From positions 1 through 40,950 of the IMG/VR virus record IMGVR_UViG_3300022818_000019: a stretch of 40,950 bases of DNA; one strand, 5' to 3'. Below the pieces are notes generated by a model. The model did no database searches and was not told where the DNA came from. It saw nothing but the letters and a program-made list of their open reading frames with translations. This DNA is from a virus. A program made the position numbers and the translations under genes. This document shows positions 1,198 to 32,151 of the stretch, in pieces; positions within the stretch are counted from its first letter, which is position 1, and the number at the start of each line of letters is the position of its first letter.

Positions 1198-2235
1198 CTA
1201 TGCGTATCCTGTGATTATGCCATTCTTAAAAGTTAGGGTTTTTCCAACTAAATCTGCTGTTGTTAATGTACCTGATATACCTGCACTACTATCAGCAGCA
1301 TTATATCCATCAGCTTCAATTATGCCTGTTACATTTACTTTCCCAGCAGTAATTCCATCCAATGTCGCTGTACTATTAAGGTAGAGTTTATCTGTATAGG
1401 TATTTGCAAAGTAAAGACTTGATGTTCCCAAGTCCCTTGCACTATCCGTTGTCGGGTTTATGTTACCAACTATTTCCAACGCTCCACCAAAATGGTTAAG
1501 TCCTGCATTAGTATAAATCGCATAATTAAGCGTTCCTCCCCTAGTAACATCGTTGAGGTAAATTCCATATTGATTAGCAACTGTCCCTGATGAGTAGATA
1601 ACACTTTCTAAATAGTAACCATAGAGATTGGTTATTGCTCCTCCCACTACAACTGGCTGGGCTGTATAACATTTTCCAGTCAATATAGTTCCAGCTTCTC
1701 CTTGTATAACTGCTTTACCACCTATCGCATTAGAAGTGGTACCTGCAGCTTTTTGATAAAATCCACCAGAAAAACCAGCATAATAATTAGCAGTACCCGT
1801 AGAATGATAAGCACTCAGTTCAAACTGCATACCATAAATACCATTTGAAGCAAAAGCAGTATCGTAGTAACCAGATACTTTTATTCCAGCAACATCTCCT
1901 GCGGTAGGATTAAATGTTTCATTAACAAAAATTCCATTTAAGTCTGACAAGGTAGCATCCCATCCAACAGCAATATGTCTTTGTACATCTATCCCACCTA
2001 TTACATTTATTTGTCCTGCCGTACTCCCGTCCAGTGTTGCTGTACTATTCAAATAAATCTTATCTACATACCCATTAGCCCAATACTTACTACTACTTCC
2101 CAAATTATCTGTACTGTCTGTGTCTGAGATAAGAGAGGTGTTGATTGCTACTGAGGCGAGGTTGTCTAAAGCTGCTGAAGCTCCTCCCCCACTTGAACCC
2201 GCTGGCGTAATTGATAATTTAGTAAAATCTGCCAT
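1198..2235 (-). CDS. Tail fibre / receptor-binding-like virion protein, 345 aa
   Basis: ATG at 2235, 4 nt after the preceding gene's stop. The protein is Gly/Ser/Thr/Tyr/Asn-rich with few charges, as in phage fibres and appendages. It carries an internal repeat: the block LGSSSKYWANGYVDKIYLNS near residues 45-64, followed by TATLDG, recurs in diverged form (LGTSSLYFANTYTDKLYLNS, then TATLDG) near residues 265-290. Such LGSSS-x-W-x-LYL modules are typical of trimeric beta-helical fibres. The central region (about 75-245) is beta-rich with many aromatics. Its N-terminal segment may dock to the large protein encoded just upstream (2239-4263). The exact position in the particle is inferred. Confidence 0.7.
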   Translation of the reverse strand: MADFTKLSITPAGSSGGGASAALDNLASVAINTSLISDTDSTDNLGSSSKYWANGYVDKIYLNSTATLDGSTAGQINVIGGIDVQRHIAVGWDATLSDLNGIFVNETFNPTAGDVAGIKVSGYYDTAFASNGIYGMQFELSAYHSTGTANYYAGFSGGFYQKAAGTTSNAIGGKAVIQGEAGTILTGKCYTAQPVVVGGAITNLYGYYLESVIYSSGTVANQYGIYLNDVTRGGTLNYAIYTNAGLNHFGGALEIVGNINPTTDSARDLGTSSLYFANTYTDKLYLNSTATLDGITAGKVNVTGIIEADGYNAADSSAGISGTLTTADLVGKTLTFKNGIITGYA

Positions 2236-2238
2236 ATT

Positions 2239-4263
2239 TTATGAATATTGAACGTCAAACCAACAATCTGCACTCCCTATTGTCTTAGTTGGTCCTGTAC
2301 TTGAATTACAAATTGTTATTCCCGTTGACATAGCTCTTCCTTGTACTCCAAATCCTAAAGAGAAATTAGAAGTAGCAGGAACTGTAAATATCACTACTGG
2401 TACTGCTGTATCTGCGGGTAAGGTTGCTGTATTGTGAACTTGAATAAATTGAGCAGAAGCCTTTGAGTTATACCCCGTAATCCCAAATAATGTTCCTGCT
2501 GACGCTTTAGCAACGCTTGATGCCTCATAGGCTACCGAAGTGTCATTAGTTGGTGCAGTTACGGTAACAGCTTGACTTGGTGGAGCTTGAACTGACGCAC
2601 TTATTTGTTTTAAAACCTGCATCATTGTTACAGCAGTAGTATCAGTAGCAGTTGATTTAGCATCAGCCTTTGCACCAATAGTAACGATTGAACCATCAAC
2701 ATAGGTATTTATAGCTGCTTTTGAAGCAACCGCTACTTGATCGGTTGCTATTGTTACTCTTTGTGAACCTGTACCGGTATTTCCTGACCCCATCAATGGG
2801 GTAACTCCGTTTATCTGAGCATTATTTACAGAGGCGTTGGCTGGTAAAGTAAGTACATCTGCTTGCATGTGGGTTGCAGACACAGCTCCAGCTAGGGTAG
2901 TTAAATCAGCATTAGTAACAGCAACTGTTCCGTCAACTGTAATAGCATTTCCACCATCTTGGATATTGACCGCAGCTGCACCCGTTGAGTTATTTATAGT
3001 TACATCACCAATATCTGTACCTGAAACAAGTTTTGCATTTAAAAGCCCAAGTGTAGTCTCAGTAGCAAATCCTGTTATGGCAGCAGGAGGAGTAAGAGTT
3101 GTGATAGTCGCTGTTGGCAAAATAACGGGAACTGAAGCCGCAGCCAAAGCCTGACCCAAGGCTGGGATGTTATCTGTTTTAGCCTTTATCAATGCAAGAG
3201 TAGTCTGTGTAGCAAAGTCCTTAGCGGCTATCGTATCTAGTACAGCGTTGTCGGTTGCTGACAATTCCGCTGTAACTACATCAGTATTTACTAAATTTCT
3301 AATATCCAAGTCAGTAGCTGTAACCGTACCCGAAGATACAACCGTGATATTTTCCAGTGCTGTTAAATCCTCATCAGATAAATGAACTCTTTGAGCCGTA
3401 GCTGCTGCTCCAGCTCCCACAACCGAGAGGGCTGCATTATCTACCGTAATTGAATTACCGCTATCATTTATACCAACCTCATCCCAAGTACCGCTTTGAG
3501 TAACTGCAACTGTACCCGTTACGGTAACGCTTGGCATAGTCAATACATCAACCTGTACATGTCTGTCATCATCAACTAGGCCTTTCTTGTCCGTTCCCGC
3601 TGCATTTGAAAAGGCTGCTTCACCACCGCTACCTCCTCCTGCTGATATAAGACTCCCGTCAGGATTAACTATTGGTACTGCTCTTATTCCATCTGTAGTT
3701 TTGACAGTCGGAGTTGAACTTCCTCCGCCGCTGAATCCACCCATAACTTGCGGAGTTGGATTAATGACTCTAACTGCTATCGCATCCTTATCCTTAGTAG
3801 GGAAGTCAATTTTTTGTTTCTGATCTGGTTTAAACTCAAGCTTTAAACTAATTTCATCTAATACGTCTTTAATTGGTCTAAGTGGAGCAAAGACTAAAGG
3901 CAGCCATGCGGGTTTCTTAATCCCTATACTGTCTGGAAAATGCATCGGTTGAGTCTTTGGCATTTCAGCCCAATTCTCAATCTTTATTGAATCTGGAAAT
4001 GGAGGAATGACAGTCTTAGGAAACTCTGGGAAGTTAGAAACACTTACCTCTTTTAAAGGTTCAGGAATTTTAATCTCGCCAAGGTTAGTAACTCTAGTAT
4101 CTAAGGACAAGACTGTAACTTTACCAGACTTTGTAAGTTCCTTAGCGGTTCTTTCTCCTACTACTTCGTCTTTTAATTGTTTTGCTAAATCCAATGCCTT
4201 ATCTGCCTCTTTTAAGACATCCATTACTTCTTGGTCTTTTTGTGCTTGTTCGTCTAAATCCAT
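2239..4263 (-). CDS. Large virion-associated (tail/appendage) protein, 674 aa
   Basis: ATG at 4263, two bases from the portal stop. The first 80 residues form a charged coiled coil. A Pro-rich stretch with repeated FP-x-x-xxI and FPDSI motifs follows (about 80-170), then a Gly/Ser linker (about 180-215). The rest (about 230-560) is a long run of short Val/Thr/Ala-rich beta repeats ([36 protein letters not shown]) typical of phage decoration or appendage proteins. The C-terminal 110 residues form a compact beta domain ending FDVQYS. A portal-adjacent gene with coiled-coil anchor and beta-repeat body suggests a tail appendage or head-fibre protein. No enzymatic motif is visible. Confidence 0.65.
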
Positions 4264-6121: not shown

Positions 6122-6486
6122 TTAAGTCCTTTCTTTATCAATTCTTCCTCATCCTCTTCTGCAAGGTCATCTGTTTCAATCGGGGTTAACTCTTCATCGT
6201 CTACCGTATGACTTTTCTTTGCTTCTTTTGAGATAGTTACTTTAATGGGTTTGGTAAAATCAGGTTCAAAGCTTTCAATCGGGGTAGTTTCATCAAAAGC
6301 ATCATCTGGTTTAACAGCATCAGGGGCTTCCTCCATTACTCTTTTATATCTTCTGACTCTTGGACTAACTGTTTTCTTTTTAAATAGGGGTTGAGTTATA
6401 AAATAAAGTACCACTAAAGTACAAACTAACGAAGCGGTGATTGTGGCAAGGGATACTAATAATACAATAAACAGCAATACTTCCAT
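6118..6486 (-). CDS. Single-pass membrane protein, 122 aa, between TerL and portal
   Basis: ATG at 6486. Residues 1-32 are a strong hydrophobic transmembrane segment. Next is a short basic stretch (about 35-52, KKKTVSPRVRRYKR), then a long acidic, disordered tail (EEDEEELIKKG near the end). This gives an N-out/C-in type topology with a cytoplasmic tail. I recognise no family. It overlaps the portal start by 4 nt. Upstream is a distinctive promoter-like element (6494-6521), shared with the adaptor gene at 37358, whose -10-like box ends 7 nt before the ATG. Confidence 0.75.
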   Translation of the reverse strand: MEVLLFIVLLVSLATITASLVCTLVVLYFITQPLFKKKTVSPRVRRYKRVMEEAPDAVKPDDAFDETTPIESFEPDFTKPIKVTISKEAKKSHTVDDEELTPIETDDLAEEDEEELIKKGLK

Positions 6487-6493
6487 TGAATAA

Positions 6494-6521
6494 AGCGTAT
6501 CAAGTCTAAACTATATTGCAA
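6494..6521 (-). promoter_or_regulatory. Shared promoter-like element, class TTGCAW-N16-TACGCT
   Basis: Minus strand: TTGCAA (6521-6516), 16-nt spacer, TACGCT (6499-6494), 7 nt, ATG (6486). The core ACTTGATACGCTTTA is identical to that before the adaptor gene (37363-37377), with the same spacing to -35-like box and ATG. This suggests a second promoter class, perhaps for late genes. Confidence 0.5.
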
Positions 6522-6524
6522 TAG

Positions 6525-8660
6525 CTATTCGTAAGGACTGGAAGAATCTAACTCAGTAAAATGTTCTTCGCTTTCATCAACTACATCCAGTTTAATAGGA
6601 AAGACTGCGGGAAAGACAGTTGTACGCTTGACCTCTAACTCTTCTGCTGCATCTTGTTTTGAGTATGCGATATAACGTAAAACATCACAATTAGATACGA
6701 TGACATTGCCTGCTGTGAACATTCCTGTATCCGTTACGAGATTCCATACCTCTGCGTTTTCGGAACATTGACATTTTACAGTTGAGGCAGCAGAACTTTG
6801 ACCATGTTGGGAATGGGGTAGAATATTCTCCGTTGCAATTATTACAAATTTTATTAACCCATATTTTATTTTTCCAAGTAACCGCTGAATTTCTCCTAGC
6901 TTGTTCCTTGCCTGCATCTGATTTATGCCACTTCCTTGCTTTTTCTTGTCCGACAAATCCTCTTTTTTTAGCAGCTGCGATAATTGATAATATATGACGT
7001 TGTTTATGCTCGGTATTACTGACCATTTCAAGATTTTCAATATCGTTTCTATCGTGATTAGTATCTTTGTGATGAATGTGAAAGCCCTTAGAAATCTCCC
7101 CTTTAAAGTGTTGCCATACTTCAATGTGTAGGTATCCTGTTTTACCTGTGTAAAACGATGCACTACGCCTAAAATACCTTTTATCGGATAATGTTGATGA
7201 ATTTGGATATCTCCTGTAGACGATCCCCTTAAAATAGACACGTTCCACAATTTGTCCTTCGCTTTCAAGTCTTTCAATAGGCGAAATCCATCCTGAGTTA
7301 AGAATGGATGATTGCTTGTAACTTTCGTTGACTGGAAGGCGTATACCCTTTGTCTTCCTGTTTTGACTTTTCTTAATACTTTTGACCAACCTATCGGTGT
7401 CCATACATAATCCTTTTCTGATACTTTAATTATAGCCTTATAGCCTTGCTTTGTCAATATCTTAGTATGTCTACAAAAACATAAATGGTCGTTAATCTTC
7501 CTAACCTCTTCCGGCTCTTCGTAACTACCTATCCTACTACTTGGTTGTTCTTTCCACTGATAATCCTGTAACTCTTGAATAAACTTCTGACATCTAGGAT
7601 GAATCACAATCTTATTATTGGCAAACATCTGTCTGACAAAGTTAATCCCCGCCACTACTTCATTGTTCGCTTTGACTAAAGGAAAGCCATCTTCTAAGTA
7701 TTCATCAGCTAATGACCACAACATATCACCCTTTTGTTGATTCTTAGCAAAACCAGCAGGGTCGCCATAACAAACTTGATACTTATCAAAGTCAGCATAG
7801 AGTTTTAACATGGTCTTTATAGCCTCTGAGTGCCTCTTGGCGGTGTTTTCCTCTTCTTTGTACTCATCTAAGATATAAGCAATCCCATCTTCCTTAATCT
7901 TAATTGCGAGTGAAGCAGTGAATCCCCTGACTGCGAAATCTAACCCTGTGTAATAATCAGCATGTTCATTGAAAGCGTGGTCAAAGTATTTAACGTGGAC
8001 ATCCGGATTAAACTCTCTATAGATAAGTCCTCTGAATCTTGTAAATTCTGCAAGGTATTCTTGAGAGAATTGGTCTATGGTTACATCTAATTTAGCAGCG
8101 TCTATTTCTTCTTTCTTAACATAAGGATTATCGTATGAAGTAAACTTCCAACTCTTATATTCTCCGTCTAATAATCCTTTCTCATATAACTCGTAGAAGT
8201 GATTATATCCTTTTGGCGTTGAGATGAATAAAACAGGAGCTTGATAATCAACTATACATCCTCTTAATACTTCAGCCCATATCCATCCCCAATTATGAAT
8301 AGAAGCTATTTCATCAATGATTAATCCTCTAAGCTTAACTCCTCTTAACGCATCTGGATTCTCTGCACCCTTTAATTCAATGATTGAACCGTTCTTTAAA
8401 GTGATAGATAACTCAACCTCATTTTTTTTAGCTATCCAATCTTGAGGAATAATGCTTTGCAGCTGTCGCCAGTGGATTTGTTTGCTTTGTTTATAGGTAG
8501 GTGAAACTATCCAATATAACCCTACTTCTTTTAAAGCCCACTGTAAACCAATTAACTCTGAAAGAATAGACTTACCCCATCTACGCCCTGCACAAATGAT
8601 TCTATAACGATGAGTATCGTTTGCAACTTCTAATTGTCCTTGATGTAAAACTACCTTCAT
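6525..8660 (-). CDS. Terminase large subunit (ATPase/nuclease) interrupted by an intein
   Basis: 711 codons; after splicing 447 residues, the usual TerL size. The ATPase domain has Walker A CAGRRWGKS (about 23-31), Walker B GLIIDE (about 112-117) and coupling motif FISTPKG. The RNase-H-like nuclease has the first Asp in TGLDFA (about 238-243), ILDEYKEEE (about 263-271) and the GDPAGFAKN segment. The final NDHxxDxLRY motif is split: KINDHL ends at residue 393, the intein occupies 394-657, and CDVLRYIAY resumes at 658. Joined, the motif reads NDHLCDVLRY with correct spacing, so splicing is required to rebuild the catalytic site. The protein packages DNA through the portal. Its start overlaps the TerS stop. 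Confidence 0.93.
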   Translation of the reverse strand: MKVVLHQGQLEVANDTHRYRIICAGRRWGKSILSELIGLQWALKEVGLYWIVSPTYKQSKQIHWRQLQSIIPQDWIAKKNEVELSITLKNGSIIELKGAENPDALRGVKLRGLIIDEIASIHNWGWIWAEVLRGCIVDYQAPVLFISTPKGYNHFYELYEKGLLDGEYKSWKFTSYDNPYVKKEEIDAAKLDVTIDQFSQEYLAEFTRFRGLIYREFNPDVHVKYFDHAFNEHADYYTGLDFAVRGFTASLAIKIKEDGIAYILDEYKEEENTAKRHSEAIKTMLKLYADFDKYQVCYGDPAGFAKNQQKGDMLWSLADEYLEDGFPLVKANNEVVAGINFVRQMFANNKIVIHPRCQKFIQELQDYQWKEQPSSRIGSYEEPEEVRKINDHLCFCRHTKILTKQGYKAIIKVSEKDYVWTPIGWSKVLRKVKTGRQRVYAFQSTKVTSNHPFLTQDGFRLLKDLKAKDKLWNVSILRGSSTGDIQIHQHYPIKGILGVVHRFTQVKQDTYTLKYGNTLKGRFLRAFTFITKILITIETILKILKWSVIPSINNVIYYQLSQLLKKEDLSDKKKQGSGINQMQARNKLGEIQRLLGKIKYGLIKFVIIATENILPHSQHGQSSAASTVKCQCSENAEVWNLVTDTGMFTAGNVIVSNCDVLRYIAYSKQDAAEELEVKRTTVFPAVFPIKLDVVDESEEHFTELDSSSPYE
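6690..7481 (-). mobile_element. Intein within the TerL nuclease motif, 264 aa in the TerL frame
   Basis: First residue is Cys in CFCRHTKILT, matching splicing block A (Cys1, then the D/H-T-K-I pattern). Block B TSNHPFLTQDGF contains the TxxH motif. The C-terminus reads WNLVTDTGMFTAGNVIVSN followed by Cys+1, matching blocks F and G; the penultimate residue is Ser rather than the usual His. Removal leaves NDHLCDVLRY in TerL. Between about TerL residues 471 and 640 the frame encodes no recognisable domain yet has no stop codon. An HNH endonuclease occupies another frame there. Confidence 0.9.
6691..7404 (-). CDS. HNH homing endonuclease nested out of frame inside the intein, 237 aa
   Basis: This frame is shifted relative to TerL and lies wholly within the intein. 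The ATG at 7404 has AAGGA 6 nt upstream; a GTG at 7248 also has AAGGA 6 nt upstream and would give 185 aa, almost clear of splicing block B. The HNH core is HIHHKDTNHDRNDIENLEM (about 109-127) followed by TEHKQRH. The preceding YFKGIVYRRYPNS and RRYFRR-like segment, and the following KARKWHKSDAGKEQ and C-terminal zinc ribbon (Cys187, Cys190, Cys205, Cys209, then FRKRRG), match the large phage HNH family end to end. The stop codon sits on the last Ser-Asn codons of the intein. It would cut intein-less terL genes to promote homing. Confidence 0.85.
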   Translation of the reverse strand: MDTDRLVKSIKKSQNRKTKGIRLPVNESYKQSSILNSGWISPIERLESEGQIVERVYFKGIVYRRYPNSSTLSDKRYFRRSASFYTGKTGYLHIEVWQHFKGEISKGFHIHHKDTNHDRNDIENLEMVSNTEHKQRHILSIIAAAKKRGFVGQEKARKWHKSDAGKEQARRNSAVTWKNKIWVNKICNNCNGEYSTPFPTWSKFCCLNCKMSMFRKRRGMESRNGYRNVHSRQCHRI

Positions 8661-9172: not shown

Positions 9173-9505
9173 ATGGCATCCAACCCGAAAATAACCTTCC
9201 TCTTCCCCTACAGATGGCTTAAAGAAGATAAACTATATCTTGCCGCAAATATAAAACGCATGATTGAAAAAGAAGCAGGGCAAGAGGCTTATGAAATATT
9301 GGCTGGTATTCCGGTTTACAAAGTTGTTATCAGTTATCAGTATAGAGAACCGATTGCTAACTTCCCTATTACGCTTACTCAAGTTAAATCATTACTTAAA
9401 CCATTCTTTAAATTTGGGAAGTGTATTGGTCTGTCTATTGATTACAAACAACATAAGAGTAAAACCATGTTACCTTTATTAGATTTTCAAATATATTTCA
9501 ACTAA
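9173..9505 (+). CDS. Hypothetical protein opening the glycan operon, 110 aa
   Basis: ATG at 9173, directly downstream of a strong promoter and without a ribosome site. The basic protein has alternating helix and strand, including a Lys-rich helix (about 20-45) and a hydrophobic C-terminal strand. I recognise no family. Its stop shares one base with the start of the next glycosyltransferase (TAATG), so it is the first gene of a translationally coupled operon. A role in glycan synthesis is inferred only from position. Confidence 0.7.
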   Translation: MASNPKITFLFPYRWLKEDKLYLAANIKRMIEKEAGQEAYEILAGIPVYKVVISYQYREPIANFPITLTQVKSLLKPFFKFGKCIGLSIDYKQHKSKTMLPLLDFQIYFN

Positions 9506-10281
9506 TGAATATAACTGTAATTATTCCCTCAACTACAACAGGACTGGGATATCTTGCTAAATTAATGCCTCAACTGTCTATAGAGTGTGAAGGAAATGAA
9601 ATAATCATCGTTGACAACAACTCAAGAGATGGAACTACTAACTATCTTGCGAATTATGCTTGCACTATTATCGTAAATAAAACCAATGAAGGATTTGCTA
9701 AAGCTAACAATAAAGCCGCTAGAAAAGCTGAAGGTGATTATCTGTTATTCTTAAACAATGATACAGTCGTTACCGAAGGATTTTTAAATACAATGCTTGA
9801 GACTTTTAACATTGATGAAAAGATTGGCATAGTAGGCTGTCTTATCATCAAACAAGACACTAAACAAATACAACACGCAGGGGTAATGTTTACTCAAGAT
9901 TACATCCCTTATGAACTAGGGTTACCCGTTCCCTCTATAAGTGCCGGAATTACCATGAATGATGACAGGGTTAGATCAATTAGGGAAGTCCCCTCAGTTA
10001 CAGCAGCTTGTATGATGATAAAAAAGAGTGTCTTTGAAGAGGTCGGAGGGTTTGATGAAAGATATTGGTGTGGTTGGGAGGATACAGATTTATGCCTCAA
10101 GGTTCGTGAACTTGGATACAAGATATGGTATAATGGGATGACAAAGATATATCATAAACATTTTGGCTCAATAAACGTAGGAAGATTTAAAAATGAAACA
10201 GAAAACAGACAACTATACGATTCACTTTGGGTTACATCAGGGAGAGCTAGGAAAGTATTGAAAGGATTTATAACAGCATGA
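9505..10281 (+). CDS. Glycosyltransferase family 2, 258 aa
   Basis: GT-A fold glycosyltransferase of the rhamnosyltransferase-like GT2 group. The nucleotide-binding strand is ITVIIPSTT at the start. IIIVDNNSRDGT (about 33-44) is the classical second motif, LFLNNDTVV (about 91-99) holds the DxD-like metal site, and GGFDERYWCGWEDTDLCLK (about 184-202) is the acceptor-side motif with the ED pair. Transfers a nucleotide-activated sugar to a glycan or lipid acceptor in the cytoplasm; the donor cannot be told from sequence. It overlaps the next gene by ATGA, indicating coupled translation. Confidence 0.93.
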   Translation: MNITVIIPSTTTGLGYLAKLMPQLSIECEGNEIIIVDNNSRDGTTNYLANYACTIIVNKTNEGFAKANNKAARKAEGDYLLFLNNDTVVTEGFLNTMLETFNIDEKIGIVGCLIIKQDTKQIQHAGVMFTQDYIPYELGLPVPSISAGITMNDDRVRSIREVPSVTAACMMIKKSVFEEVGGFDERYWCGWEDTDLCLKVRELGYKIWYNGMTKIYHKHFGSINVGRFKNETENRQLYDSLWVTSGRARKVLKGFITA

Positions 10282-10781
10282 ACGAAGTACAAGAACTCAA
10301 GCTTGATTTAGGGTCGGGTACGCATAAGAAGGAAGGATTTATTGGTGTAGATTTAGTTGCCTTAGAGGGAGTAGATAAGGTAGTTGACTTAACTAAATTC
10401 CCCTGGCCATGGACTGATGAATCTGTAGACGCATTATACTCCCATCACACGCTTGAACACTTTGACCCTATAAATTTTGTTAAGGTAATGAATGAAGCAT
10501 ATAGGGTGTTGAAAGCTGGCAAGGAATTTGAAATTATAGTACCACTCTATCCTTCTGATTCTGCGATGCAAGACTTTGACCACAAGATGTATTTTACAAC
10601 TGAAACTTTTGGAAGGTTTGAGCCAGAGAATGAATATGCATATGAAGTAGGAGTAAAGAATAAATGGAGAAGAAAACTAAATGACTGGACTCCAGCCATC
10701 AAGATTGAAGAAAGGTCCGATGGGGTTGCTCTAGTTTGGCCCAGACTTAGAGAATTACATGTGATTTTAAAAAAATTATGA
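10278..10781 (+). CDS. SAM-dependent methyltransferase, 167 aa
   Basis: Class I methyltransferase of the methyltransf_11 type. The SAM-binding loop is LDLGSGTHKKEGFIGVDL (about 9-26), followed by VDKVVDL, the catalytic-face motif SVDALYSHHTLEHF (about 51-64) and YRVLKAGKEFEIIVP (about 77-91). It is paralogous to the product of 13492-13980, sharing LGxGxxKxEGxIGxD and the EAYRVLK region. Start and stop overlap its neighbours by 4 nt. In a glycan operon the probable substrate is a sugar hydroxyl or nucleotide sugar, but this is inference. Confidence 0.88.
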   Translation: MNEVQELKLDLGSGTHKKEGFIGVDLVALEGVDKVVDLTKFPWPWTDESVDALYSHHTLEHFDPINFVKVMNEAYRVLKAGKEFEIIVPLYPSDSAMQDFDHKMYFTTETFGRFEPENEYAYEVGVKNKWRRKLNDWTPAIKIEERSDGVALVWPRLRELHVILKKL

Positions 10782-11644
10782 TTTTATCCGTAACAATTCC
10801 AAGTAGAAATCGCTACGACAACCTAAAAGGAACATTAGAGGCTCTGGCTACTCAGTCAATGGATAAGAAAGACTATGAGGTCATTCTAGTTGATGACAAC
10901 TCCAATGATGATACCATCTCTTTAGTCAACCAATTCAAGGACAAAATGAGATTAAAGTATGTCTTTAGTAATGTTCCCAAACCACACACTTGGAATGCTA
11001 GTTGCATAAGGAATCTGGGTGCAAATATCGCTGATGCTTCAACCATAGCCTACCTCTTTGTTGATTCTGATGTCATGCTACCTCCGACAGCACTGGTTAA
11101 TTATGCAGAAGATTTAGCAATCAATAGTGAAAGAGTAATAATTGGCCCGTATGATTTCTATAAGGAAGGGAATACTGAGATTGCACAAAAGGATGTTAGA
11201 AGCAAGAAGTTTGAAGAAGTCAATAAGAGTGATACTTTTAATACAGTCTTTGATGGACTCTCCTGCTTTGGAGGGAATATCGTAATACCTAAAAAGATTT
11301 TTTGGGATGTAGGAGGATTTGATGAAGATGTGCATATTGGGCTTGAAGACGGTTCTATGGGATTAAAATTATGGAAAGCAAAAACAAATTTTTCCTATGA
11401 TGGAAGAACCAGAGGTAAACACCAATGGCACGAAACACCAATAGATAGATTCCCTCCTAACATGAAAGAACATATTGATAATTTAAACATGAAACACTTT
11501 GGTACTAAAGACCCAGATTACGGAGTAGTAGAAGCCAGTCGTGATACTTATGCCAGTTTGGGATTTCCTGATTGGAATCCTCCTGAATCATGGCAGATGA
11601 AAAAGATGGGATTTATGCTGACTGTTAAGGAGGAAGAAAAGTGA
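10778..11644 (+). CDS. Glycosyltransferase family 2, 288 aa
   Basis: Starts with ILSVTIPSRNRYDNLKGTLE (about 2-20). VILVDDNSNDDT (about 34-45) follows, then YLFVDSDVMLP (about 89-99) with the DxD metal site, and GGFDEDVHIGLEDGSMGLKL (about 173-192), an N-terminal-galactosyltransferase-like acceptor motif with the ED pair. It is a cytoplasmic GT2 enzyme that would add a sugar to a growing glycan. It ends in a Lys/Glu tail whose coding DNA carries the AAGGAGG ribosome site for the next gene, so translation of the epimerase is linked to it. Confidence 0.92.
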   Translation: MILSVTIPSRNRYDNLKGTLEALATQSMDKKDYEVILVDDNSNDDTISLVNQFKDKMRLKYVFSNVPKPHTWNASCIRNLGANIADASTIAYLFVDSDVMLPPTALVNYAEDLAINSERVIIGPYDFYKEGNTEIAQKDVRSKKFEEVNKSDTFNTVFDGLSCFGGNIVIPKKIFWDVGGFDEDVHIGLEDGSMGLKLWKAKTNFSYDGRTRGKHQWHETPIDRFPPNMKEHIDNLNMKHFGTKDPDYGVVEASRDTYASLGFPDWNPPESWQMKKMGFMLTVKEEEK

Positions 11645-12642
11645 AAATATTAATAACCGGAGGATGTGGATTTTTAGGCACAAACATAGCTCTTGAAGCA
11701 CTTAAAAGAAATTATGAAGTCATTGCTTTAGATAACTTCGTCAGACGAGGTTCTGATAATAATGCAAAACTATTAGAAGAAAAAGGTGTTGAAGTAATAC
11801 ATGGCGAAGTTAGACTTTATGAAGACTGGCAAAGCTTACCCAAAGTTGACGCAGTTATTCATTTAGCAGGGCAACCAGGCATTCCTAAGTCTTTAGAAAA
11901 TCCTGTACTTGATTTTCAAGTCAATGCTGTAGGAACACTTAACGCTTTAGAATTTTGCCGTAAGAATGGAAACATTCCCCTTATTTATGCCTCAACTAAT
12001 AAAATTTATTCAGACGAAATTAATGAATTACCTATTAAGGAATTAGACAAACGATATGCTTGGATAGATAGAACAGGAATCAATGAGAATTACCCAATGG
12101 ATAGTGCGGGTAAACACCCACATTCTCCCTATGGAGTAAGCAAAGCAGCGGCAGACCTCTTATGTCAGGAATATTATCATGCCTTCGCAGTTCCCACTGT
12201 TGTAATGAGAATGAGCTGTATTTACGGTCTTTATCAAAACGGGGTTTCAGAACAAGGCTGGACTGATTTCTTCGTAAGACAAAGAATATTAGGAGACAAT
12301 AAACTAATCTTCTATGGAAATGGAAAACAAGTAAGGGATTGTTTATTCGGAAGTGATGCTGCCAACGCATACCTTACAGCTTTAGAGAAAATAGATATAG
12401 CCAAAGGAAAAGTCTATAATTTAGGAGGGGGGAAATTCAACTCCTCACTTATTGAATGGGTTGAAATATTAAACAAATACACCGATAAACCTCCTATGGA
12501 GATTTCCTATGAAGACTGGCGTTTAGCAGACCATAGAATTTATATAAGCGATACCAGTAAAATTGAAAAAGAATTAAATTGGAAAGCTAAAGTCTCAATA
12601 GAAGAGGGTATTAAACAAATGGTAGAGCAATATGAACAGTAA
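11641..12642 (+). CDS. NAD-dependent sugar epimerase, CDP-paratose 2-epimerase-like, 333 aa
   Basis: Extended SDR enzyme. Rossmann motif TGGCGFLG (about 6-13), acidic cofactor residue in ALDNFVRRGS (about 29-38), YASTNKIY (about 116-123) and catalytic HSPYGVSK (Tyr164, Lys168). RMSCIYG, YGNGKQVRD and the DWRxADHRIYISD segment near the C-terminus are hallmarks of the CDP-paratose/CDP-tyvelose epimerase group, which makes CDP-tyvelose in bacteria. It starts at GTG 11641 with a strong AAGGAGG site 6 nt upstream, the best ribosome site in the operon. No other CDP-dideoxyhexose gene is present, so the host would have to supply the precursor, or the substrate is a different nucleotide sugar. Confidence 0.85.
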   Translation: MKILITGGCGFLGTNIALEALKRNYEVIALDNFVRRGSDNNAKLLEEKGVEVIHGEVRLYEDWQSLPKVDAVIHLAGQPGIPKSLENPVLDFQVNAVGTLNALEFCRKNGNIPLIYASTNKIYSDEINELPIKELDKRYAWIDRTGINENYPMDSAGKHPHSPYGVSKAAADLLCQEYYHAFAVPTVVMRMSCIYGLYQNGVSEQGWTDFFVRQRILGDNKLIFYGNGKQVRDCLFGSDAANAYLTALEKIDIAKGKVYNLGGGKFNSSLIEWVEILNKYTDKPPMEISYEDWRLADHRIYISDTSKIEKELNWKAKVSIEEGIKQMVEQYEQ

Positions 12643-14791: not shown

Positions 14792-15352
14792 TTACGAAGA
14801 TACATTAAATAAATGATTACACTTAGGACATTTAATAGCATTTAGCATATACATTAAATTTTTAGATTGATGCACTAACTCTAAATTTTCAATTCTATTG
14901 TCGTCTTTAATCCCGTTTTTATGATGAACAACCTCTAAAGGAGTTAAATATCTTCCAATTTTCTTCTCCATTACAAATCTATGTTCTCTAATATAACCAT
15001 TTGAACCAGAATTAGGATGAGATGGATGACTAATTAATACATATCCACTTTTATCTTTATATCTTCCACCTTTCCATGTAAAATTATTAATACCCGTATA
15101 TTTACCTCTCCTTAATTTTCCAGCTTCTTGCATATTTCTAATAGGAATATTGTATTGTTTTAGAAAAGAATAAAGATATGTTTTACCAAATCCTAATTCT
15201 TTTGCTATTTCACAAGCTCCTCGTTTCTTTTTTATATATTCTCTTATTAAAAATTCTTTCGTAACGGGGTGCTTTGGCTTATTCCACGGGATAAATCCTT
15301 TTTTAAATTCTGTTTTTGGAGAAATGTGTAAGCCTTTGGGAATTGAATACAT
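14792..15352 (-). CDS. Free-standing HNH homing endonuclease, 186 aa
   Basis: The N-terminus has a NUMOD-like FKKGFIPWNKPKH segment (about 17-29). Next is a helix-turn-helix region (about 35-70, GACEIAKELGFGKTYLYSFLKQ). The HNH core is REHRFVMEKKIGRYLTPLEVVHHKN followed by GIKDDNRIENLEL, about residues 121-160, with His-His and Asn at the expected spacing. A C-terminal CPKCNHLF is a half zinc ribbon. DNA-binding modules plus an HNH nuclease are typical of phage homing endonucleases. It sits convergent to the glycan operon and carries its own promoter, which ends 8 nt before the ATG. Confidence 0.9.
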   Translation of the reverse strand: MYSIPKGLHISPKTEFKKGFIPWNKPKHPVTKEFLIREYIKKKRGACEIAKELGFGKTYLYSFLKQYNIPIRNMQEAGKLRRGKYTGINNFTWKGGRYKDKSGYVLISHPSHPNSGSNGYIREHRFVMEKKIGRYLTPLEVVHHKNGIKDDNRIENLELVHQSKNLMYMLNAIKCPKCNHLFNVSS

Positions 15353-20571: not shown

Positions 20572-20681
20572 ATTTGTTTCACTAATTCTATTAAAGTAAC
20601 CGTCATATACATCATAAAAGAAAAAGCTACAGCAACGAGTAAAATAAATATTCCTATAAGTAAAGATAATAAGTTTTTCAT
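20568..20681 (-). CDS. Membrane microprotein, 37 aa
   Basis: ATG at 20681 and TGA at 20568 overlap both neighbours by ATGA. It is one strongly hydrophobic transmembrane helix (LLSLLIGIFILLVAVAFSFMMYM) with very short flanks. It directly follows the secreted murein hydrolase gene and might act with it, but this is only positional. Confidence 0.55.
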   Translation of the reverse strand: MKNLLSLLIGIFILLVAVAFSFMMYMTVTLIELVKQI

Positions 20682-21154
20682 ATCAGTTTACTAAACCATA
20701 AGACTTTACCCGCCCAATCTTGCGAACAGTTGTTATATGGGCAGGATAATTCATTGATTGATTCTGTTTGTTGGAATCTAAGGTAAGTTCTTGAAGTCCC
20801 GAGGGTCTGTGCGACCTTGTAAATACCCTCTTTAAATGAATCAAAGTAACATACATGACTCCCACACATATACCCCCAAGCGTTATAAGAGCCTGGAGCA
20901 ATATTCTTGCCAAAAGTAGACTCAACTCCACTGATACTCGGAAGAACCTTATAATTGATTTTATATCTAACAGAAGCATCCACAAAGTCTTTTGCATTCC
21001 CTGCCATAGGAGAGTGATACCTTTGTAGAAACGTCTGTACTCTTTTAATTTCATTAAGGTTCGGGTTCGTGTATTTAAGTGAGCTATTATAAAATTGTTG
21101 TTTAGATCCGACATATATAAAAAAAATAATTATAAAAATCTTTATCCATCTCAT
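20678..21154 (-). CDS. Membrane-anchored or secreted murein hydrolase (lysozyme-like), 158 aa
   Basis: An N-terminal transmembrane/signal helix (about 1-18) precedes a lysozyme-superfamily domain. YHSPMAGNAKDFVDAS (about 46-61), KVLPSISGVESTFGKN (about 69-84) with the catalytic Glu near residue 78, PGSYNAWGYMCG, FDSFKEGIYKVAQTL and a C-terminal CSQDWAGKVLWF are the classic order for glucosaminidase/transglycosylase-type enzymes. From memory, this YNSP...VESTFGK...YNAWG layout is especially common in Patescibacteria. It would cleave peptidoglycan outside the membrane, a second hydrolase besides the CHAP endolysin and the GH19-like ejection domain. Confidence 0.85.
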   Translation of the reverse strand: MRWIKIFIIIFFIYVGSKQQFYNSSLKYTNPNLNEIKRVQTFLQRYHSPMAGNAKDFVDASVRYKINYKVLPSISGVESTFGKNIAPGSYNAWGYMCGSHVCYFDSFKEGIYKVAQTLGTSRTYLRFQQTESINELSCPYNNCSQDWAGKVLWFSKLI

Positions 21155-27747: not shown

Positions 27748-30700
27748 CTATAGACTTGCTAAATACTCATTTGCTCTTGTTGCGATGTTATAAGGGACTC
27801 TGCTTCCTGTACTAAATTCTCCTCCGTTTACACTTCTCCTTGCATCAACAAAATCTTTCATTGCTCTAGTTGCAGTACCAAACAGTTTAAAGTATGCAGC
27901 CATTGCTCTTGCAGAAGTTGTAGGGTTATTTAAAAGTTCTGGATGGTTTACTAAGTCTAGTTTTAAATACTGACCTATCTTTTTATAATTAGAAATACCT
28001 GTTAATTGTATAAATCCTCTTCCGGCATAGTTTGCACCACCTTCATAACCTAGCCTTTGAGCCTGACTTGCTCCTCCTATTTCATTCTTAGGTACAAAAC
28101 TGGATTCATGTTCTGCAGTTGCCAGGGCGTAGGCAATAGCTCTTTTATCAGTTATTCCTTCCTTCTTAAAAGCATCAATAATAATCGGTACATTTTTAGT
28201 TGCTGCTTGCTTCATGTTTGTAGGTACTTTTGCTACAACTTTAGTAGTCTCAGCAGCATAGGCTTTGGGAATAAAAGAGTCTAATAAGCTAGTAGATTTG
28301 TATGGTTGTCCTTGACCGTATTTTTTTATCCAATCTGTAATTTGTACTCTAGCAGCCTCTTTAGTTATTGTTCCATTTTTTAATTCTTTAGCTAATTTAG
28401 TTTCAAGAGTTGCTTTAGCTTGATTTGCATCATTAGTAATCCATCTTAAATTCTTATCTGAATTATCGCCTCCTAAAGCTAGAGGGATTATATGGTCAAC
28501 AACCAAACCATTTTTGGCTGTATTTAAGTATTCTTTTCTTTCTAAAATCATTGCATTTCCTGATATTTTTCTCATCCTCTCTTCAGTAAAGATAGCCTTA
28601 ATTGTATTTTCTGGATCAACACCAATCCCCATTGTTGCAAGATAGATTTTATCAACAAGTGTTTTCGGAGCTTCGGGAGATGATTCATATTTATCTTGAA
28701 TAGTTGTTCTTAAACCTGTACCGTTGAAAATTCTTTCTTTTACAGTAGCATTTATTTCCTCCATAACCTTCTGCATAATCCCAACTTTTTCTTGATTAGT
28801 TGAATTTTTCCATAATTGTTTAGTTTTTAATATTCCGAATATCTCTTTAGTTTGTGAACCTAATTCTTTTTGATATCTTATAAACTCACTTTGGGATAAG
28901 ACTTTCTCCACCCCATCTACGGTTATTTTCTGCGGAGCAGTTCTTGGAACTTGCACCTTTTCTCCTGTTTGTCTGTATAATTCTAAAACCATATCAGCTT
29001 CAGGAGTAGGTAAATACTTATTAACAAAAGCAGGATTAACAAAAACATTAAATACATTGTTAGAACCATTCTGATACCTTTGAGTATCTTCCCCTAAAGT
29101 ATTTGATCTATTAGACATCGTTGCGGATAAAATAGGTATCTTCGCTAGTACATAATTCATAGCTTGTTTATACTTATTTGGATCGTAAGTTTCTTTAGTG
29201 TTGTTATCTATTACCTGATTTACTTGAGAAAGTAATGTTGGTATCATACTTGAGGGAGCTTGTAAAAGAGCATCCACTATTGAATCAGTTATGCTTTGTC
29301 CTCCAAAGAACCTTTGAACTCCTGAGACCAAAGGTTGTTCTGCTAGAGTATCTATTCCTATAGCCAAGTTACTTACTCCCGAAGTTGCTATTTTAGAAAG
29401 AGTATCAAATACATTCCCGCCTTTTACATTCTGTTGTGCCTTGCCAATTTCAGCTCCCATCGCCAGAGATACTGCCATTGGTTGCATCCAGTCGTAGCTT
29501 ACTAATGTGTCTCCCTTTTTAATCTTGGCTTCATCTTTATTAAATCCTGAGAGAACATATCTTTTCAAAGCTGTGATATTAACTGAATACTGTCCTTGTC
29601 CTTTGGTTTTTTGTAGGGTTCTTAAATCCGCATCCTTATCAGCAGCTCCTGTTAATATTCCAGCTTTTTGTAAAACTGCACCTATCCCCGTAAGTCCTGC
29701 TGTTCCCACAGTTGCTCTTGCAAAAGACTCAACAAACTCTTTTTGATTAAAGCCTTTTCTTAATAGCGGATTAACAACCTGTTTTAGAGACCTTGCAAAG
29801 CCTATCGGGGAGTAATCAATAGCTCTCATCAAAAGATTAGCAGGAGTTTTGGGATACTTGATAATTAAATCCCCTAAGCCAAACTCTTTACCTGCATTAA
29901 GTGATTTTTTAAGCCCTGAGAATATCATTGTGGCAGCATTCTTATCCTGAAAAGTTCTATAAAGTCCTGCAAAGTTTGCTATATCGGTCATTTCCTTAGT
30001 CGGATTAGCTAATAAGTCTATTACTCTTGCTTCTTTTTGTACGCCCTTTAATCCTTCATTCATTGCAATTATTCTTGCTTCACTTGCTAAAGACTCTTCA
30101 GCTGCGGCTTGGTAGAAAGCCTTATCAGGCACTCTAAGTCCTATGTTCAAAGCCTTCTCCGCAGTACCTAATATTTTCCCTTTAAATACTCTTCCTGTGG
30201 GTATTTCTAATTTACTATCTATATTACTGGTATTAACTCCTCTAAGTGCTTCTTGTAGGCTTTCTTTCCCACCCTTTACTCCACCTTTAAACTGAGTGAT
30301 TAAACTAGGTTTAAGAACAGACCTTTTCCCTGTAATTTTAGAAACTCCAACATCCAATCCACTTGCGATTAATTTTGAAACATTATCTAAAGCTAAAAAG
30401 ATAGTATTCCCTCCTAAGTTTCTAAGTAAAGTCTTAGGGTTTAATAATTGTGCCATAGTTTGAATTGTGGAGATTTTCTTTAACATAGTCGGCGGGACAA
30501 CCTCATTGACATCTCTTAAAAGTTCTGCGGTTCGCAATATCTTTTCTCTACCTTCGGGAAGATTCTGTAGTTCTTCTGCCTTTGAGAGTAATTTACCTGC
30601 TGTTTCTTCGGTTAGTTTAACATTTCTGCCCGCATTCTTAGCTCTATTTACTAGAGTTCCGGCATATCTTAGTATTCCTTCAGGAGTTAATCTTCCAAAC

Positions 30701-32151
30701 ATCGCTAAAGCCTGAATGCCTTGTCCTGATGTAGTTGCTCTCTCTGCCAACTGTTCTACTGTTCTTATAGCAGTAGTGAAGTCTCCTGCCTTTTGTGCCT
30801 TAACGATAAGAAGCTGTCCTACTGCGGAAGTAGTGTCATCAATAGAACCCTTGCTCTCAAAGACCATCTTAGTAGCCTTACCTAAATCTTTTTCCACAAG
30901 GTCTTTAGCGGTATTAAGCGTTCCTGTATTTGTGATAGGATTGTATTTTGTTCTAGTAGAATCTTCCAAACCTTTTATAATTGCCTCTTCTGTGTTCGGT
31001 TTAGCTTTAACTGAGGTTACGAACTTTCTCTCCTTGAGTGTTCGTGCTATAATCTCGTCAGATGAATCTTTTACTGGCTGTTCTCCTAATTTTATTTTGG
31101 TACTGGCTTGGTCAGCAACTTGATAAGAAGTACCCTTATTCTGACCGACTGGCAGTTCTGATGTACTTGCTTTTAATTCCTGTTTTAATACTGGCTGTTG
31201 GGCTTCTACTTTCTTAAACGGAGTAATTAAATCCTTCTTCACGTCAGAAATGGTAGGTTGTGCGACATCAGGCTTGACGGAAGTAAATATATCTTCAATA
31301 CTTTTAACAGGACTCTTCGTATCATTAATTAATTTAGTAGCCTGTTCTAAAAGTTTAGGGTCTGATTTAACTACTTTCACAAAATCCTCTACTTTAGTAG
31401 CATTTTTAGCTATACTTACTAAACCTTTTTCTCCTCCGCCAATTACGGGAAAAGCATCCATCGCCATACCGCCTGCTACTAAAAGCGGAGCAATAAAACT
31501 AGCAGTATTATTATCAACTCCAAATCCTTTTAGACCATCAATCCAACCCTGATTATTCTCAGATAAGCTCTTTATCTCATCTTTACCAAATTGCAAACTC
31601 TGGTCTCTGGTAATTATTTCCTTTCCCGTTAATGGATTAATTTCTTTCTTGATAGGCTGAAAGCTTTTCTCGCCTTTCATCTGAAGCTCTATAGACTTAA
31701 TTACTCTTTGAGGATTATCAATAAATGCCTGCTTGACTACATCAACAACATTCTTAGGAGTTACTTTAAGCTTTGAGTCTTTAGCCTGACCGCTTATTAA
31801 ATTTGTATTTTGGTAAGCATTCTTAACAGTATCAATACCTTTTTTAACATTCGGTTCATTCATAAAACTGGTAATCAAATCAGGTTTGTTTGATGGTTTT
31901 AAAGTTGCAGAGGGTTTTTGATTAAATGTGCTTAAGTTAATCTTTGGCAGATTAGCGACTGGTTTAACTGGCAATGGCACTTTAACCTGCGGTGGTGGGG
32001 GTGTAACTACTTTTTGAACAGGCTGGAAGTTCATTCCCGCACTTGGAGATTTAACTAGAGAATTTGTTTTTTGCGGAGGAGTTACAACCTTAGGTTTGTA
32101 AGGACTTATTAGTTTATTAAACTGAGCTATTAAAGATTGAAATATGTTCAT
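27748..32151 (-). CDS. Giant virion (ejection) protein with HNH and GH19-like lytic domains, 1467 aa
   Basis: The Pro-rich N-terminus (about 1-90, VVTPPPPQVKVPLPVKP) is followed by Lys/Ser-rich, disordered sequence and a long helical body (about 200-1100). The body holds AQLLNPKTLLRNLGGN and AGLYRTFQDKNAATMIFSGL segments seen in large internal virion proteins. At about 1213-1250 there is an HNH-type motif, KNGLVVDHIIPLALGGDNSDKNLRWI. After a KAYAAETT linker the C-terminal 150 residues form a GH19-like lysozyme domain: AYALATAEHESSF (Glu near 1347) and NYAGRGFIQLTG. This suits a podovirus inner-core protein ejected to open the cell wall. The HNH's role is unclear. Confidence 0.85.
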   Translation of the reverse strand: MNIFQSLIAQFNKLISPYKPKVVTPPQKTNSLVKSPSAGMNFQPVQKVVTPPPPQVKVPLPVKPVANLPKINLSTFNQKPSATLKPSNKPDLITSFMNEPNVKKGIDTVKNAYQNTNLISGQAKDSKLKVTPKNVVDVVKQAFIDNPQRVIKSIELQMKGEKSFQPIKKEINPLTGKEIITRDQSLQFGKDEIKSLSENNQGWIDGLKGFGVDNNTASFIAPLLVAGGMAMDAFPVIGGGEKGLVSIAKNATKVEDFVKVVKSDPKLLEQATKLINDTKSPVKSIEDIFTSVKPDVAQPTISDVKKDLITPFKKVEAQQPVLKQELKASTSELPVGQNKGTSYQVADQASTKIKLGEQPVKDSSDEIIARTLKERKFVTSVKAKPNTEEAIIKGLEDSTRTKYNPITNTGTLNTAKDLVEKDLGKATKMVFESKGSIDDTTSAVGQLLIVKAQKAGDFTTAIRTVEQLAERATTSGQGIQALAMFGRLTPEGILRYAGTLVNRAKNAGRNVKLTEETAGKLLSKAEELQNLPEGREKILRTAELLRDVNEVVPPTMLKKISTIQTMAQLLNPKTLLRNLGGNTIFLALDNVSKLIASGLDVGVSKITGKRSVLKPSLITQFKGGVKGGKESLQEALRGVNTSNIDSKLEIPTGRVFKGKILGTAEKALNIGLRVPDKAFYQAAAEESLASEARIIAMNEGLKGVQKEARVIDLLANPTKEMTDIANFAGLYRTFQDKNAATMIFSGLKKSLNAGKEFGLGDLIIKYPKTPANLLMRAIDYSPIGFARSLKQVVNPLLRKGFNQKEFVESFARATVGTAGLTGIGAVLQKAGILTGAADKDADLRTLQKTKGQGQYSVNITALKRYVLSGFNKDEAKIKKGDTLVSYDWMQPMAVSLAMGAEIGKAQQNVKGGNVFDTLSKIATSGVSNLAIGIDTLAEQPLVSGVQRFFGGQSITDSIVDALLQAPSSMIPTLLSQVNQVIDNNTKETYDPNKYKQAMNYVLAKIPILSATMSNRSNTLGEDTQRYQNGSNNVFNVFVNPAFVNKYLPTPEADMVLELYRQTGEKVQVPRTAPQKITVDGVEKVLSQSEFIRYQKELGSQTKEIFGILKTKQLWKNSTNQEKVGIMQKVMEEINATVKERIFNGTGLRTTIQDKYESSPEAPKTLVDKIYLATMGIGVDPENTIKAIFTEERMRKISGNAMILERKEYLNTAKNGLVVDHIIPLALGGDNSDKNLRWITNDANQAKATLETKLAKELKNGTITKEAARVQITDWIKKYGQGQPYKSTSLLDSFIPKAYAAETTKVVAKVPTNMKQAATKNVPIIIDAFKKEGITDKRAIAYALATAEHESSFVPKNEIGGASQAQRLGYEGGANYAGRGFIQLTGISNYKKIGQYLKLDLVNHPELLNNPTTSARAMAAYFKLFGTATRAMKDFVDARRSVNGGEFSTGSRVPYNIATRANEYLASL

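Follow-up and report, generated by a model that had tools for sequence, protein, structure and literature searches.

The window, by which we mean the whole 40,950 nt stretch analysed here (36% GC), encodes a terminase large subunit (TerL) whose last nuclease motif is interrupted by an intein-like sequence. Within this intein, in another reading frame of the same strand, lies a complete gene for an HNH protein with a zinc ribbon (Table 1). A first-pass annotation had read the locus as a Hint intein with an out-of-frame HNH endonuclease, a reading that we find supported and conserved in dozens of independent loci.

Table 1. Features of the TerL locus, in window positions
Feature	Position	Strand	Support and remarks
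TerL precursor ORF, exteins plus intein, 711 aa	6525-8660	-	Terminase_6N 3.3e-9, Terminase_6C 2.9e-6, phrog_2 8.8e-39
N-extein, TerL residues 1-393, ending ...KINDHL	7482-8660	-	
C-extein, starting CDVLRY (last nuclease motif), stop codon included	6525-6689	-	
Intein, 264 aa, Cys1-Asn264	6690-7481	-	member of alignment A2
Hint-N splicing half, intein residues ~1-80	7242-7481	-	model pLDDT 87-97; Foldseek to gp41-1 and DnaB inteins
Passenger loop in TerL frame, intein residues ~81-239	6765-7241	-	stop-free; no selection on amino acids; model confidence low
Hint-C splicing half, intein residues ~240-264, ending ...VIVSN	6690-6764	-	sequence and model
HNH ORF in TerL -1 frame, 237 aa from ATG 7404	6691-7404	-	HNH_3 E 7.6e-11; phrog_15471 E 6.3e-21
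HNH gene from GTG 7248, likelier start	6691-7248	-	GTG common to window, L004 and L006
HNH_3 domain, residues 91-134 of the 237-aa ORF	7003-7134	-	
Zinc-ribbon cysteines C187, C190, C205, C209	6778-6846	-	conserved alignment columns
AAGGA, 6 nt before ATG 7404	7411-7415	-	ribosome-site-like, uncertain
AAGGA, 6 nt before GTG 7248	7255-7259	-	not conserved in L004 or L006

The intein covers TerL residues 394 (Cys1) to 657 (the last Asn) and is followed by the +1 Cys. Its removal joins ...NDHL to CDVLRY... and leaves exteins of 447 aa in total, so that excision would rebuild the NDHLCDVLRY motif as first proposed. The sequence and fold criteria for an intein are met by Cys1 and block A (within CFCRHTKILTKQG), a TxxH block B (TSNHPF), a C-terminal Asn followed by Cys (VIVSN/C), a Hint fold, and a position inside a conserved motif. 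C1, T55, H58 and the C-terminal Asn are invariant among 48 intein relatives, and a profile of alignment A2, which includes the window intein, matches the gp41-1 intein (6qaz, 6.5e-21). On its own the window intein does not reach the Pfam Hint threshold, and the case therefore rests on the relatives, the blocks, and the structure model. In this model of the intein frame, the Hint halves have pLDDT values of ~87-97 and the loop between them 43-83, and Foldseek matches it to gp41-1 (6riz, E 1.6e-4) as well as to DnaB inteins. Counting against splicing, the penultimate residue is Ser and the usual His is absent. A split intein or fractured gene can be excluded because there is a single ORF of 711 codons rather than two half-intein genes, and a search of positions 6400-7800 against Rfam gave no intron match at E up to 1, which leaves no support for a group I intron carrying an HNH ORF. 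Nor is the criterion for a canonical endonuclease-bearing intein met, as the HNH occupies the -1 frame both here and in 76 of the best 80 relatives.

Over the HNH ORF, neither the HNH frame nor the TerL frame has an internal stop, while the third frame has 29. The HNH stop codon, TAA, falls on the Ser-Asn codons of the intein, where it had been placed initially. The HNH_3 domain is present in 41/41 HNH relatives, and the catalytic residues (HH, N) and zinc-binding cysteines are invariant across the aligned family. The HNH model (pLDDT 87.6) has only one structure match with good probability, the homing enzyme I-HmuI, and this match is weak (E 0.005-0.011). With a catalytic motif and a zinc-binding module, the protein meets the sequence criterion for an HNH homing endonuclease, its cleavage and self-copying being inferred. 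The isolate phage records that we examined annotate only TerL at this locus and miss the HNH.

Besides this locus, the window contains a second, free-standing HNH gene of another subfamily (14792-15352, minus strand; HNH_3 1.7e-10, phrog_20891 5e-27). Two same-strand ORFs of 158 and 143 aa overlap almost fully in different frames (20678-21154 and 20683-21114, minus strand), with no match in Pfam or PHROG. A sugar cassette (9505-12642, plus strand) comprises two family-2 glycosyltransferases and a GDP-mannose-dehydratase/epimerase-like gene, and a 1467-aa protein (27748-32151, minus strand) has a chitinase-like end (Glyco_hydro_19) and is matched by PHROG families of endolysins and of endonuclease VII/HNH type.

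The double-open stretch is not a chance product. When the 161-aa HNH core was re-drawn synonymously with phage codon usage, the TerL frame stayed open in 0.035% of 20,000 trials, and when its own codons were shuffled, in 0.35% of 20,000. Elsewhere, the longest open alternative run on the same strand of other window genes (9,793 codons) is 95 codons, compared with 237 here. The initial judgement that such openness is unlikely by chance thus stands, both on codon re-sampling and on the relatives, and a chance origin is ruled out.

The closest HNH relatives found were L004 and L005 (57% identity over all 237 residues) and L006 and L007 (50%), all of which have the HNH out of frame inside a TerL intein. 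A profile scan of IMG/VR gave at least 524 relatives, the best 80 of which were kept. Seventy-six of these are nested in the same phase, within long, mostly TerL-like frames and at the same TerL nuclease motif. Three others (L028, L072, L085) are free-standing genes located just after TerLs whose motif is uninterrupted and which lack an intein. The last, L041, is the sole opposite-phase nesting in this set (TerL intein ORF 2006-4108, HNH 3420-3941), apparently an independent solution. Nested out-of-frame HNHs also occur in the TerL inteins of isolates (Tetrasphaera TJE1, Acinetobacter Highwayman, and Rhodobacteraceae LS06-2018-MD07) and of a faecal phage contig. GTDB genome contigs, searched with a tighter HNH alignment than the wide, diverse one, added 19 loci with an open covering frame, in records named Omnitrophota, Frankia, Bacteroides, Parabacteroides, Gemmatimonadales, Acidobacteria, Patescibacteria, archaeal MAGs, and others. 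These taxa are record names only, and stray viruses are possible among binned contigs.

Across 63 covering ORFs, Intein_splicing was detected in 55, Terminase_3 in 37, and Terminase_6N in 33. The insertions lie in the last nuclease motif of TerL, and most use one of two registers that differ by a single residue (NDHx/CDALRY and NDH/CxDALRY); intein boundaries were located automatically in 78/86 loci, a few of them misplaced. A full-length TerL scan of viral contigs gave one relative only, and the nearest TerL relative (L002, 48%) is intein-free at the nuclease motif. Between the window and L004, the TerL N-exteins are only 26% identical and the Hint-N halves 73%, a contrast suggesting that the intein has moved horizontally. 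A DALRY-like peptide occurs in the Hint-N of L013, L022, L036, L039, L049, L051, and L077, probably by coincidence; the idea that it mimics the target was dropped, since so few loci have it.

These relatives also bear on whether assembly or sequencing indels, or two compensating frameshifts, merely displaced an in-frame HNH, with nothing selected. In-frame HNH inteins do exist, as in the spliced dCTP deaminase intein of cyanophage CL131 (PMC6293099), yet the phase is identical in the 76 nested relatives and in isolate genomes, and the TerL frame lacks stops far beyond chance. Independent loci have already refuted this explanation, and we regard its residual probability as negligible. The findings that the first-pass annotation said would overturn its reading did not appear: among the relatives examined, there is no HNH of this family in frame with the intein and no sign of indels, and no nested locus has a broken TerL frame except the GTDB contig L103, whose covering frame ends soon after the HNH and which has no visible Hint-C.

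The two frames are under different kinds of selection. Across the HNH core, the TerL frames of 58 non-redundant nested loci contain 0 stops in total, while 148 are expected from shuffling each sequence's own synonymous codons; the corresponding frame of free-standing HNH relatives has stops in 28/28. Substitution rates were sorted by their effect in both frames for 11 pairs of related loci, with a bootstrap over pairs. Over the shared core, this gave a dN/dS of 0.43 (0.35-0.50) for the HNH frame and 0.97 (0.80-1.13) for the TerL frame, in which ~42 stop-creating changes would be expected if tolerated and 0 were seen. The first-pass annotation had asked for precisely these comparisons. Its impression that both frames look selected holds for the HNH as a protein but for the TerL frame only in the avoidance of stops. 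It is the endonuclease whose protein sequence is selected in the core; all that is preserved in the TerL frame is its freedom from stops. The fastest-changing codon position gives the same picture: in Hint-N (227/443 differences) and Hint-C (68/108) it is TerL position 3, whereas in the core it is TerL position 2, equivalent to HNH position 3 (370/770). The coding task is thus handed from TerL/Hint to HNH and back to TerL/Hint, a pattern that is also visible, more weakly, between the window and L004. A conserved domain in the TerL-frame loop was considered and rejected on its dN/dS of ~1 and low model confidence; its 43% similarity to L004 can be produced by HNH conservation alone.

Purifying selection likewise weighs on the possibility that the HNH is a dead remnant and its nesting a fossil. 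Evidence for expression or activity is lacking, but the HNH-frame dN/dS falls to 0.18 in the four closest pairs, and catalytic and zinc residues do not vary across the family. We consider a remnant extremely unlikely.

How translation of the HNH begins is less clear. In 64/78 non-redundant loci, the HNH frame is closed by a stop no more than 25 codons upstream of the core, and 63 of these 64 have a start codon after that stop, with ATG first in 56. Clear Shine-Dalgarno motifs are found in a minority of loci. In the window, the two AAGGA motifs that were first taken as ribosome sites are both present at 6 nt upstream of their starts; they are weak evidence alone, because both coincide with TerL/Hint codons and the nearest relatives do not keep the motif that precedes GTG 7248. 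Between ATG 7404 and GTG 7248, 15 of 31 differences from L004 fall at TerL third positions, the pattern that selection chiefly on the Hint frame would leave. ATG 7404 is thus probably dispensable for the HNH, judging from this comparison, and GTG 7248 is the likelier start, although the start actually used remains unresolved. Programmed -1 frameshifting from the TerL frame would instead yield a fusion of the TerL N-terminus, Hint-N, and HNH. This could account for the -1 frame in all nested loci but one, and the HNH frame of the window is open far back into Hint-N. However, most loci have an upstream stop followed by a start codon, a -1 slippery heptamer occurs in the gap in only 2 loci with an upstream stop, and L041 uses the other phase, making frameshifting very unlikely. 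In free-standing HNH genes, the future TerL frame has 3.6 stops per 100 codons and the other frame 9.1, so that the prevailing phase is easier to keep open; L041 shows that the opposite phase is feasible too.

A tree built from 108 HNH proteins intermixes the nested with the free-standing forms and requires 12 label changes, at least 9 of which are forced by well-supported branches, and the window HNH groups with those of L004 and L006 (support 100/97). The direction of change is unresolved on the tree. We infer, as the likelier reading, that free-standing genes invaded nuclease-less inteins, because a nuclease-less intein exists at the same site in Microcystis phage Mic1. The TerL of this phage (L003) apparently has two inteins, one of them at this nuclease-motif site without a nested HNH.

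Taken together, we favor, at a probability of roughly 85%, a mobile intein with an overprinted homing endonuclease that has its own internal start. The TerL message would be read in frame 0 into a precursor, in which the two Hint halves would fold together around ~160 unstructured passenger residues, the HNH gene read in the wrong frame. The intein would then splice itself out, leaving a terminase of 447 aa. Ribosomes starting separately within the intein would produce a distinct HNH/zinc-ribbon protein, which would cut TerL genes lacking the intein at the conserved DNA of the nuclease motif (DHxxDALRY), and repair would copy the whole cassette into them. The two open frames and their conservation, purifying selection on the HNH, stop avoidance in the TerL frame, the Hint sequence and modelled fold, the constant site, and the free-standing relatives next to TerLs without an intein are observed, and splicing, internal initiation, cleavage, and homing are inferred from them, homing only from the constant insertion site and patchy distribution. 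The HNH could alternatively be a packaging cofactor of the terminase, given that free-standing relatives adjoin TerL in many phages and that some HNH proteins are known to take part in packaging (Kala 2014, cited in PMC12613952). Mobility fits better with its scattered occurrence among unrelated TerLs and its location within an intein at a single motif, and the repeated switches between nested and free forms and the resemblance to I-HmuI also argue against a cofactor, a role we find improbable.

Several known systems resemble this mobile intein in part. Closest by Hint profile and fold are the gp41-1-type split inteins, which Dassa reportedly described in 2009 as having a separate homing endonuclease gene between their halves. 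There too the endonuclease is a separate protein, but the intein is split, while the window has both halves in one unbroken ORF that the endonuclease gene overlaps. In the CL131 dCTP deaminase intein (PMC6293099), Hint halves surround an HNH_3 endonuclease that, unlike ours, is part of the spliced intein polypeptide. Mycobacteriophage TerLs also have inteins with homing endonucleases (PMC5050341), located in the ATPase domain rather than at the nuclease motif and without the out-of-frame arrangement. The ShiLan domain and Pacc40-type insertions are out-of-frame HNHs in mycobacteriophage DNA methylases (PMC11855218, Genes 2025). They share with the window a related HNH (profile E 4.6e-10) with zinc fingers, a host frame open throughout, the same relative phase, and a patchy distribution suggesting homing. 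However, their host is a dispensable methylase with no splicing domain found, whereas here an essential terminase hosts a Hint intein around the HNH; of the ShiLan-type criteria, only the out-of-frame HNH and open host frame are met. Phage DNA methyltransferases (L167-L177, L181-L192, L195-L200, L143) harbor a second HNH subfamily, likewise out of frame and of the same phase, between the FFYxAKxSKxERN and HPTVKP motifs and without Hint. About 28 IMG/VR loci look like the ShiLan methylase type, and such elements look, from these hits, to be common well beyond mycobacteriophages. No other intein with an out-of-frame endonuclease was found in the literature searched. For overlapping reading frames, PMC11855218 cites Gorbalenya 1998, 'Non-canonical inteins', and a preprint by Gosselin (2025) on actinobacteriophage inteins of non-canonical architecture; one of the two may already describe such an arrangement, leaving priority uncertain.

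Because this arrangement recurs in terminase genes of very different phages, it is genuine and widespread, a way for one stretch of DNA to encode two proteins. In textbook inteins the endonuclease is in frame, and splicing and homing therefore constrain one another. Here, the enzyme is uncoupled from the spliced polypeptide, at the price of a second frame free of stops, and many compact phage inteins seemingly tolerate ~160 arbitrary loop residues. Annotation calls for caution, since the HNH is missed where only TerL is annotated. The loci amount to a natural, much-replicated overlapping-gene experiment, in which one frame is selected for a protein and the other for openness only, and they may mark a path connecting free-standing nuclease genes with inteins. 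We think it fairly probable, though well short of established, that among inteins at the terminase nuclease site that carry this HNH family, the frame-separated form prevails. Such inteins would be a class of mobile element whose splicing domain and homing enzyme are encoded by the same DNA yet in separate proteins, gained or lost many times (at least 9 switches on the tree, once with the phase reversed), and stop avoidance alone would keep the host frame open.
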